A stretch of DNA of 64,000 nucleotides from Ruminococcus sp. (GTDB taxonomy: Bacteria > Bacillota > Clostridia > Oscillospirales > Ruminococcaceae), in the NCBI GenBank assembly GCA_016288815.1, contig JAEELF010000030.1:1-64000 (forward strand). Direction: 5' to 3'. Position 1 is the first letter of the stretch, and the number at the start of each line of letters is the position of its first letter. Positions 23,322 through 26,369 of the stretch are shown one piece after another. The notes beneath the pieces are model-generated. The model was not told the origin of the DNA. It searched no databases and saw nothing but the letters and a program-made list of their open reading frames with translations. Position numbers and translations under genes: made by a program.

Positions 23322-25436
23322 ATGTCAGCAGATCTTCGTAAGGAATGGGAAGGCTTCACTCCCGGCAGGTGGAGCGGCACGTCAGTCAACGTCCGCGACT
23401 TTATCCAGAAGAACTACACGCCCTATAAGGGCGATGAGAGCTTCCTCGCGCCGCCGACTGAGGCTACCGTCAAGCTCTGGGAGCAGGTCATGGACCTTAC
23501 ACGTCAGGAGCGTGAGAAGGGCGGCGTCCTCGACATGGACACAAAGATAATCTCCACTATCACCTCCCACGGGGCGGGATACCTCAACAAGGACCTCGAA
23601 CAGATAGTCGGTCTCCAGACGGACAAGCCCTTCAAGCGTGCCCTCCAGCCCTTCGGAGGTATCCGTATGGCTCAGCAGGCGTGCCGCGAATACGGATATG
23701 AGGTCGATCAGGAGGTAGTGGATATTTTCACGAAGTACCGCAAGACCCACAATCAGGGCGTCTTCGATGCTTATACCCCTGAGATGAGGCTCGCGCGGCA
23801 TTCCGCGATACTCACAGGTCTCCCCGACGCCTACGGCAGAGGTCGTATCATCGGCGACTACAGGCGCGTCGCGCTCTACGGCACCGACCACCTCATCGCG
23901 GACAAGCAGCAGCAGATCGCCAATTCCCTCGTGAGAATGACCTCCAAGAATATCCGTCTGCGCGAGGAGCTCTCCGAGCAGGTAAGGGCTTTGCAGGATC
24001 TCAAGAAGCTCGGCGACATCTACGGGCTCGATATCTCCAAGCCCGCCGCCAACGCCAAGGAAGCCGTTCAGTGGCTGTACTTCGGCTACCTCGCGGCTGT
24101 CAAGGAGCAGAACGGCGCAGCGATGTCCCTCGGACGCACATCGACCTTCCTCGATATCTATATACAACGCGACCTCGACCGCGGTGTTCTCACCGAGCAG
24201 CAGGCTCAGGAGCTCATCGACCACTTCATCATGAAGCTGCGTATCGTCAAGTTCGCGCGTACTCCCGAGTACAACGAGCTCTTCTCCGGCGACCCGACGT
24301 GGATAACCGAGTCTATCGGCGGCGTGGGAGTTGACGGACATCACCTCGTTACCAAGAACAGCTTCCGCTATCTGCATACCCTCGAGAACCTCGGTACTGC
24401 GCCCGAGCCCAACATGACCGTGCTCTGGTCCACGAAGCTGCCGAGAAAGTTCAAGGAGTACTGCGCGAAGATGTCCATAAAGACCTCCTCGATACAGTAC
24501 GAGAACGACGACATGATGAGGGTAGTTCACGGCGATGACTACGCTATCGCGTGCTGCGTTTCCTCCATGAGAGTCGGCAAGGAGATGCAGTTCTTCGGCG
24601 CGAGGGCGAACCTCGCGAAGTGCCTGCTCTACGCCATAAACGGCGGTGTGGACGAGCGCCTCGGATTGCAGGTTGGTCCTAAGTACAGACCAGTTGAGGG
24701 CGAGTATCTCGACTTCGACGATGTGTGGGAGAAGTACATGGATATGATGGAATGGCTCGCGGGGCTGTATGTCAATACCCTCAACGTCATCCACTATATG
24801 CACGATAAATACAGCTACGAGAGGCTTCAGATGGCACTCCACGACAGGGACGTAAAGCGCTATTTCGCGACAGGTATCGCGGGGCTCTCGGTCGTTGCGG
24901 ATTCGCTCTCGGCTATCAAGTACGCGAAGGTAAAGCCTGTGCGCCGCGATATCGAGATCAAGGACAAGGCGGGGAACGTCACAGGCGTGGCGAAGGACGT
25001 CGTTGTCGATTACGAGATCGAGGGGGATTTCCCGAAGTACGGCAACAACGACGACCGCGTGGATCAGCTCGCGGTAACGGTCGTAAGACAGTTCATGAAC
25101 TGCGTCAGGAAGCACCACACCTACCGCGACGGCGTGCCTACGATGTCAATACTCACTATCACGTCGAACGTAGTTTACGGCAAGAAGACCGGAAATACAC
25201 CAGACGGCAGAAAACAGGGCGTCCCGCTCGCTCCGGGCGCTAACCCCATGCACGGAAGGGATACCCACGGCGCTGTTGCTTCGCTTTCGTCGGTGGCTAA
25301 GCTGCCCTTCAGGTACGCACAGGACGGTATCTCCAACACGTTCTCGATAATCCCTGACGCCCTCGGCAAGAACATGGACGTCTTCGTGGGCGACCTCGAC
25401 CTCGACAAGATAGCTGCGGAGGAGAACGATGTCTGA
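23322..25436 (+). CDS. pflB: Pyruvate formate-lyase core subunit lacking the glycyl-radical domain
   Basis: 704 residues; ATG at 23322 with AAGGAG 9 nt upstream. The enzyme splits pyruvate with CoA into acetyl-CoA and formate. The thiyl-radical pair Cys411-Cys412 (AIACCVSSM) and the substrate-binding core are intact, as is the late segment [24 protein letters not shown]. Canonical PflB continues about 50-60 residues further into the glycyl-radical domain. Here the protein ends right after DALGK with [14 protein letters not shown], so the radical glycine is absent. That domain is a separate gene at 25749. A 69-residue ORF starts inside its last codons (ATG at 25429). No activase gene (pflA) is in the window. 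Confidence 0.95.
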
Positions 25437-25638
25437 TATAAAACCTCAGGCGCAGTCCCCGGAGGAGCTCGCTGACCTCATAGATCAGCTCATGTCCGGC
25501 GGGACGGGTCACATAAATATCACCTCGGGTGAGGGCGGAGGGGGCTCCGTGGAGACCGTGAAGAGCACCGACTGCTCCGGCATTAAGGGTGCGTGCTGCC
25601 AGCCGACTGAGCTTGAACCCGAGGACGACGATCATTAA
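25429..25638 (+). CDS. 69-residue Cys-containing ORF inside the pfl locus, unknown
   Basis: Starts within the last codons of pflB (8-bp overlap), suggesting coupled translation. Residues 1-25 are acidic and helical ([16 protein letters not shown]). A glycine-rich stretch (SGEGGGG) and a cysteine cluster, [10 protein letters not shown] (about 48-57), follow, and the tail is EPEDDDH. It does not resemble the glycyl-radical domain or any family I recognise. Its place between the two parts of the lyase suggests an assembly, linker or redox role, which is inference. Confidence 0.55.
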
Positions 25639-25658
25639 TGCGTAATGCGTAATTAATG
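25636..25658. repeat. TAATGCG repeat/palindrome, copy 1
   Basis: TAATGCGTAATGCGTAATTA directly after the 69-residue ORF. A near-identical palindromic unit lies at 43352-43375 after iorA. Confidence 0.5.
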
Positions 25659-25701
25659 TGTTCGCTTGCGCTCACGATTTAAAAAAAACATAAACCTAAA
25701 C

Positions 25702-25723
25702 GGGCTGATGTGGGCATCAGCCC
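25702..25723 (+). other. Intercistronic hairpin upstream of the radical-domain gene
   Basis: GGGCTGATG (25702-25710) pairs with CATCAGCCC (25715-25723). There is no T run after it, so it looks like an RNA stability or processing element rather than a terminator; it would sit at the 5' end of a processed grcA-like transcript. Confidence 0.45.
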
Positions 25724-25748
25724 TTACACAAAACAGGGAGGAATCATC

Positions 25749-25988
25749 ATGGATAATCAGAAACAGGTAGATAATCTCATCGAGCTGCTCGACGGGTATG
25801 TCGAAAAGGGCGGTCATCACCTCAACGTGAACGTTTTCACCCGTGAGACCCTCCTCGACGCTCAGGCTCACCCTGAGAAGTACCCTCAGCTCACCGTGCG
25901 TGTGTCCGGCTATGCGGTGAACTTCGTAAAGCTCACCAAGGAACAGCAGGACGACGTCATCTCGCGTACCTTCCACTCGGAGCTCTGA
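25749..25988 (+). CDS. grcA: Stand-alone glycyl-radical domain of pyruvate formate-lyase (GrcA/YfiD-like)
   Basis: 79 residues; the ATG at 25749 follows GGGAGG by 7 nt. The sequence aligns directly with the missing C-terminus of Pfl[18 protein letters not shown], then [19 protein letters not shown] with radical glycine Gly54 in RVSGYAV, and ending ISRTFHSEL. In E. coli the YfiD protein (127 residues) is a spare part for oxygen-cleaved PflB, which still keeps its own domain. Here the core has none, so this polypeptide is presumably the obligatory radical-bearing subunit. It would be activated by a radical-SAM enzyme encoded elsewhere. Confidence 0.92.
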
Positions 25989-25991
25989 GCC

Positions 25992-26369
25992 GTGGGCGGC
26001 ATGACGCTCGCGCAGTTCACGGAGCTGATACGCTCTGAGTACGGCGCTGACCCGGAATACCTCTGGGAGAGCGACCCCTATGCGGGCGCCTTCCGGCACA
26101 GGAGCAACCGCAAGTGGTTCGCGGTGTTCATGCGCGTCAGGAGGAGCCGTCTCGGGCTGGAGGGCGATGAGCTCATCGACATCGCTGACCTCAAGTGCGA
26201 CCCGCTCATGCTGGGGTCTGTGCTCTTGCAGGAGGGCGTGCTACCAGGGTATCACATGAACAAGAACTACTGGATAACCGTGCTGCTCGACGGGTCGGTC
26301 CCTGCGGAGACTGTCGTACCGCTGCTCGGGATGAGCTATGAGCTCACCAAGACAAAAAAACACCGCTGA
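25992..26369 (+). CDS. MmcQ/YjbR-family protein
   Basis: 125 residues. Features of the YjbR/CyaY-like fold include ADPEYLWESDPYAGAFRHRSNRKWFAVFM, then LKCDPLMLGSVLLQEGVLPGYHMNKNYWITVLLDG. Members are small DNA-binding-like proteins without a firm function. The GTG at 25992 is 3 bp after the grcA stop, an ATG at 26001 is an alternative. Its position makes it the last gene of the pfl operon. Confidence 0.8.
   Translation: MGGMTLAQFTELIRSEYGADPEYLWESDPYAGAFRHRSNRKWFAVFMRVRRSRLGLEGDELIDIADLKCDPLMLGSVLLQEGVLPGYHMNKNYWITVLLDGSVPAETVVPLLGMSYELTKTKKHR

Follow-up and report, generated by a model that had tools for sequence, protein, structure and literature searches.

A naturally split pyruvate formate-lyase in Ruminococcus, encoded as a core and a separate glycyl-radical subunit together with a small radical-domain-like protein

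Pyruvate formate-lyase (PFL) is a textbook single-chain glycyl radical enzyme and one of the chief means by which gut anaerobes break down pyruvate. In the 64,000-nucleotide stretch of a Ruminococcus sp. genome analysed here (hereafter, the window; GCA_016288815.1, contig JAEELF010000030.1, positions 1 to 64,000), a pfl gene stops before the glycyl-radical domain, and this domain is encoded by a small gene downstream (Table 1). This raises the question of whether the enzyme carries its radical on a separate subunit, in trans, as a sequence-only reading of the locus had proposed, or whether the break has a more ordinary explanation.

The core reading frame is open throughout and matches TIGR01255 (formate C-acetyltransferase) with 1116.3 bits (cut-off 994.2) over model positions 1-669 of 744. 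A glycyl-radical domain in the same chain is absent, as proposed, and one Pfam Gly_radical domain is instead shared out between two proteins (positions 2-50 on the core and 50-106 of 106 on the 79-aa protein). The two catalytic cysteines that had been noted in the core are retained in the alignment with PDB sequences; E. coli Cys419 is the counterpart of window Cys412, and the adjacent cysteine pair is invariant in 30 aligned cores (alignment A1, L054 numbering). The core had also been thought to end right after SIIPDALGK, which proved incorrect, as 21 more residues follow with a tail motif of their own. This motif, G-[DE]-[LI], was found in 69 of 70 split core tails (those of the full-length cores among the 79 related loci described below) versus none of 36 fused linkers.

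The radical-domain gene begins 312 bp past the core stop, the distance given previously, and both its own ribosome site (a strong Shine-Dalgarno sequence, GGGAGG) and Gly54 in RVSGYAV are present. Its product matches TIGR01255 positions 662-744, and its alignment with E. coli PFL (PDB 1h16) begins at residue 677. The NCBIfam family GrcA3 (NF038360) is matched at 167 bits (cut-off 158) over residues 3-79, while the GrcA/YfiD family (TIGR04365) scores 96.5 bits, below its cut-off of 170 and over positions 66-125 only; the 79-aa subunit has no counterpart of YfiD's disordered N-terminus of 60 residues. The domain is under conservation, with pN of 0.01-0.08 versus pS of 0.56-0.97 (13 pairs, uncorrected). 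A YjbR-family frame (25992-26369) begins 3 bases past its stop.

Table 1. Features of the split PFL locus in the window, and lone radical-domain genes in related genomes (given with their locus)
Feature	Position	Strand	Remarks
PFL core subunit, 704 aa	23322..25436	+	no glycyl-radical domain; Cys411-Cys412; 21-residue extra tail (VFVGDLDLD...) past ALGK
Mid, 69 aa	25429..25638	+	8-nt overlap with core gene; N-terminal half like radical-domain helix and strand; acidic tail at end
Hairpin GGGCTGATG-tggg-CATCAGCCC	25702..25723	+	between mid and radical-domain gene
Glycyl-radical domain subunit, 79 aa	25749..25988	+	radical Gly54 in RVSGYAV; NCBIfam NF038360 GrcA3
Lone radical-domain gene, L143	2070-2294
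Lone radical-domain gene, L144	1978-2220	minus
Lone radical-domain gene, L145	2046-2270	minus

Comparison with relatives, which had been suggested as a check, was made over 80 related loci, namely the best 80 of 569 matches to the window radical domain. The split lies at the same domain boundary in all 79 of these nearest loci with a visible core, a figure that, given how the loci were selected, is not a prevalence; some of the 79 cores are cut by contig ends, and that of L059 has a frame change. The same break is present in genomes of few contigs (G113, locus L092, with 2; G789, locus L149, with 3). An assembly or sequencing error or a decaying pseudogene, with an otherwise ordinary pfl interrupted by a stop that is spurious or of recent date, might be suspected in a window genome assembled in 69 contigs, yet we consider it practically negligible and reject it on the conservation of the break across many independent assemblies, those of 2 and 3 contigs included, on the tail motif common to 69 of 70 cores and on purifying selection. 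The split of the Ruminococcus PFL is confirmed as real.

The stretch between both genes has the length first described, but it is not empty, as a conserved 69-aa frame (here termed mid) lies inside. Of the 79 related loci in which a core is present, 58 have a mid homologue at the same site (57 identified by script, L023 by tblastn), and mid evolves as a protein, with a pN/pS of 0.33 pooled over pairs of 8 close loci. Searches of Pfam and NCBIfam with mid matched no family, and a PDB search gave no meaningful match (best E 0.072). Profile comparison by hhalign of 36 mids with 12 radical domains gave 95.4% (E 1.9e-8) over 34 columns at the radical-domain start, such that the N-terminal half of mid is homologous to the first helix and strand of the radical domain; the mid of L149 clearly resembles the radical-domain start. 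Where the radical loop would be, mid has a cysteine motif: RVSGYAV is absent from the 36 aligned mids (alignment A2) and SGY from all 57, while Cys56 is invariant, and Ala55 and Pro59 nearly so, in the 36-mid alignment. Two cysteines are present in 23 and three in 31 of the 57 mids (two or three in 54). Judged from these comparisons, mid looks like a duplicated radical domain that lost its radical loop and gained cysteines. The order of genes differs in L163 (genome G698), where the radical-domain gene lies between core and mid.

The spacer between mid and the radical-domain gene holds a hairpin in the window (z -2.59 against a shuffled control, run for the window only). Among 22 relatives whose spacer is at least 50 nt long, 12 also showed, by eye, a strong hairpin of unrelated sequence between the mid and radical-domain genes (L008, L011, L020, L026, L029, L031, L034, L035, L038, L040, L047, and L059). 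The upstream hairpin could determine how much radical subunit is made relative to core.

The positions of the three genes also bear on whether they might be expressed as a single long chain, via frameshifting, stop readthrough, or protein splicing. Such a chain would suit L031, L035, L040, and L074, where mid lies in the core's frame behind a single stop, and L149, where core, mid, and radical domain lie in a common frame interrupted by two stop codons. Against it, mid is in the core's frame in only 6 of the 57 loci identified by script (33 and 18 in the other two frames), and a Shine-Dalgarno-like site precedes the radical-domain gene in 42 of 58 loci. The genes can also stand apart: in genome G111 mid is unlinked from pfl (L142, 3095-3298, minus strand, with its own ribosome site) and none lies beside the pfl genes at L103, and radical-domain genes exist without a neighbouring core. 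With variable frames and unlinked copies, frameshifting or readthrough to one chain was ruled out, and we hold a single chain to be very improbable.

Radical-domain genes without a core beside them were observed as second copies in G536, G543, and G552 (of 46 genomes behind the related loci), all MAGs labelled Gastranaerophilales (Table 1), and perhaps also in G538, where L146 (2359-2586, minus strand) has a contig end 0.4 kb upstream. By eye, the lone gene of L144 adjoins PEP carboxykinase-like and Crp-like frames. Might such lone genes be spare cartridges for the split enzyme?

Whether the 79-aa protein is needed at all depends on what else the genome encodes. Across the window genome (2.33 Mb, 69 contigs, 95% complete), a single match resembled PFL, and of the Gly_radical domain only the two parts described above were present; no complete Gly_radical domain or full-length PFL was found elsewhere in this 95%-complete genome. 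A second pfl with an intact C-terminus, the observation named beforehand as contradicting the proposal, was therefore not among the genes recovered by the genome search. Since the one core lacks a radical domain and no other full-length PFL was found, the radical must come in trans if the enzyme is active. The activase gene, pflA, which had likewise been sought, was detected as a PFLA match of 293.7 bits (cut-off 231.75) on contig 24 rather than the window's contig. In 44 of the 80 loci, a PflA homologue is encoded on the same strand no more than 1.8 kb downstream of the radical-domain gene; 31 loci, the window's group, lack one there, and five stretches end early.

These searches address the idea that the separate radical domain is a mere spare part, serving either an intact PFL or some other glycyl radical enzyme. 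The name of the GrcA3 family that it matches, 'autonomous glycyl radical cofactor', implies such a part, and G531 (L042), G800, and G904 each hold one fused and one split PFL. However, the core lacks the domain altogether, and an intact PFL above cut-off is absent from the window genome, from 45 of the 46 genomes behind related loci (the exception being G531; the core is broken between contigs in 2 of the 46), and from 18 split genomes of the family sample. In the window genome no intact PFL was found for it to stand beside, and the sole PFL found has no other radical domain. A spare part for another PFL was ruled out by the genome searches, and we regard the idea as highly improbable.

The family sample (119 genomes) contained 69 with PFL-1 over cut-off, comprising 18 split (the window included), 51 fused, and none with both. 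Full-length mid was found in 14 of the 18 split versus 0 of the 51 fused genomes; the mid profile drew on seven of these 14 (the window, G031, G074, G081, G092, G103, and G113), and the other seven, G111 among them, and the fused controls are independent of it. Weak mid matches in the fused G060 and G105 trace to the helix-strand of the radical domain itself, and in the remaining 4 of the 18 split genomes the cysteines sit on the tail of the core. In the phylum sample (398 genomes), 118 were above cut-off and 2 were split (the window and G340). The class sample (391 genomes), at a strict GrcA3 threshold of 1e-43, gave 25 GrcA3 matches, 23 of them in short frames, under ten family labels. MAGs labelled Gastranaerophilales (L053, L064) and Erysipelotrichaceae (L058) are also among the split loci, and a phage search with the radical domain returned matches in 1539 records.

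Mid is not the only form in which the cysteines occur. The other 21 of the 79 related loci lack mid, and there two or three cysteines are located on the tail of the core, as in L061 (LDCSNGACSSPTLFEGLD). Because the mid of L089 carries LDCMEGNTACSSPTLFEGLD, the core-tail motif of L061 and the mid motif look homologous. These cysteine tails are short (22-47 residues counted from LGK), and the helix-strand half was seen in none of the 21. We take this to mean that the helix-strand half of mid may be a docking device, since the 21 cysteine tails sit on the core without that half. Over the first two sets (98 loci: the window, 79 related loci, and 18 further), a cysteine element was present in all 98, as 73 mids, one of them via an unlinked gene, and 25 tails. 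As a universal need of split PFL the cysteine element was nonetheless ruled out: among the 21 split class-sample genomes besides the window and G340 (one of which, G849, appears to be the genome of L066, with the same coordinates and score), 17 have mid or a cysteine tail and four, G701, G738, G800, and G904, have neither. The genome of G701 is 82% complete, the tail-less core of G738 ends in GKDD, and in G800 and G904 the split PFL lacking the element accompanies a fused one.

The history of the split was examined with trees of the cores. In the first tree, of 124 cores (the window, 69, and 18 split rows, and 36 fused; L075 was left out, as were cores shorter than 600 codons or lacking a clear start), fused and split were parted by one branch with a local support of 99, and the layout switched between mid and tail 8 times, at least 6 of which are forced by well supported branches. 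The single origin without reversal implied by these two clean groups was overturned by L147 and L148, fused PFLs with a radical domain scoring almost as GrcA3, which a later tree (five fused rows dropped, split rows a subset) placed inside the split group. Holding the split rows together was rejected by an AU test (p 0.0026) on a 39-row subset with L147 trimmed at fixed length, the test having been chosen after the tree. Mid was not found in the genomes of L147 and L148 (G871, 71% complete, and G875, 99% complete), nor any cysteine in the linkers of these two fused PFLs. On this phylogenetic evidence, L147 and L148 would most simply be a re-fusion, and the data suggest an old split with one later re-fusion.

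What, then, might mid do? Small cysteine-bearing proteins are also encoded with two other glycyl radical enzymes, benzylsuccinate synthase (BSS) and 4-hydroxyphenylacetate decarboxylase (HPAD), which, unlike the enzyme of mid, keep the radical domain in the large chain. Their small subunits are not known to be radical-domain duplicates. By analogy, mid could be a metal-binding accessory subunit tuning radical transfer rather than a cap, as it is small and cysteine-bearing and its gene adjoins that of a glycyl radical enzyme. According to PMC12590467, the BSS and HPAD small subunits bind [4Fe-4S] clusters, and BSS-beta touches the radical domain and controls how the thiyl radical forms. The iron-sulphur subunits have four cysteine ligands per cluster in one chain, and the two or three cysteines of nearly all mids are too few for a one-chain [4Fe-4S] cluster; the homology of mid is to the radical domain, and Pfam and NCBIfam gave no match. 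We find this function unlikely.

Alternatively, mid might recruit the radical subunit or PflA, in the manner of residues 696-733 on oxygen-cleaved E. coli PFL. These residues are reportedly needed for YfiD binding and activation (PMC8683613), and the helix-strand segment that the N-terminal half of mid resembles reaches, via the 1h16 alignment, the start of 696-733. Recruitment leaves the conserved cysteines unexplained, yet they are the part retained on core tails; we consider it possible but rather doubtful.

Taking the lines of evidence jointly, we think it likely that this is an obligately two-piece PFL, with the 79-aa radical subunit acting in trans and a radical-less mimic, mid, probably capping the core. 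Sequence comparisons show the split, the lack of another PFL, the conservation, the homology of mid, and that, among the genomes examined, mid occurs in split systems only; that the enzyme is active in trans, that its parts dock, and what the cysteines do are what we infer. In such an enzyme, the 79-aa subunit would dock on the core where the canonical C-terminal domain sits, and PflA would install the radical on its Gly54 while it is bound there. The loop would then move into the barrel and pass the radical to the cysteine pair, and pyruvate would be cleaved as by E. coli PFL. The helix-strand half of mid would probably let it settle along the edge of the core where the radical subunit docks, holding the place or serving for recognition, and the cysteines of mid may act near the empty active site in a protecting or quenching role. 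AlphaFold predictions were poor, with a pLDDT of 68 for a core with cysteine tail (about 35 for the tail) and, for a core and mid read-through, a pLDDT of 54 and pTM of 0.46, and lend no support to docking.

The proposed complex would resemble the one formed in E. coli by oxygen-cleaved PFL (cPFL) and GrcA/YfiD, except that the enzyme would normally, and exclusively, exist in this form. As with E. coli PflB and GrcA/YfiD (and T4 Y06I), the radical domain is the same and, by homology, so would be the chemistry; in the E. coli repair, too, a separate small chain gives the glycyl radical to a domain-less core, and PflA is needed. The difference is that E. coli makes a complete core to begin with, and the small chain mends it after damage by oxygen, whereas the present core lacks the domain from the outset and carries a new tail, and the genome search recovered no complete PFL. 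Precedent for a complex of this kind comes from two studies, in which the in vitro activity of cPFL:YfiD equals that of PFL (PMC8683613) and formate is made in vivo by PflB G734A with GrcA (PMC12338860). A counterpoint is the E. coli core truncated at 695, the closest mimic of the window core, for which YfiD binding was unmeasurable and activation 32-fold below that of cPFL, though it was fully active once charged (PMC8683613). Because this truncated core binds YfiD poorly, the split core needs adaptations, and the new core tail and, where present, mid may offset the poor partnering.

It is plausible that the split serves replacement after oxygen damage. A more specific and tentative version is a cartridge-type enzyme, with a replaceable radical carrier and a cysteine-bearing dummy or core tail that occupies or guards the active site until a charged carrier arrives; it is a conceivable reading that we hold with limited confidence. 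If true, oxygen would destroy only the cheap part, and, to our knowledge, no glycyl radical enzyme with a dummy subunit dedicated to it would have been described before.

A radical carried in trans had been called unusual; the split itself stands, but the word calls for qualification, as the arrangement is found in a sizeable clade, GrcA3 is already curated, and two PDB entries look like such cores. Both entries carry the name 'Formate acetyltransferase': 38la (687 aa) is a PFL core ending in GKED, much as the tail-less G738 core ends, with no radical domain matched within, and 38lb (739 aa) is a PFL core plus a short cysteine-bearing tail (NVMFGECDMCEM...), again with no radical domain matched. 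Judged by sequence they look like natural split cores, though 38la, known from aligned stretches alone, could be an engineered truncation. Searches of PDB sequences matched no radical-domain or mid chain of either entry. They may be newer structures, as they are absent among the 50 Foldseek matches listed from a library reaching to April 2026. The split is hence not wholly unknown, its radical domain having been named and two such cores apparently deposited. A 2025 paper still describes PFL as a single-chain homodimer (PMC12590467), and no description of a natural split PFL was found among the literature matches listed, subscription papers and most preprints being outside their scope.

Overall, a natural split PFL makes the radical domain a separable, dosable part, under ten family labels in the class sample and in Gastranaerophilales MAGs. 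It offers a natural system for radical-domain docking, opening to the activase, and replacement after oxygen, for which artificial E. coli truncations have served until now, and the same arrangement extends across several families of gut bacteria.
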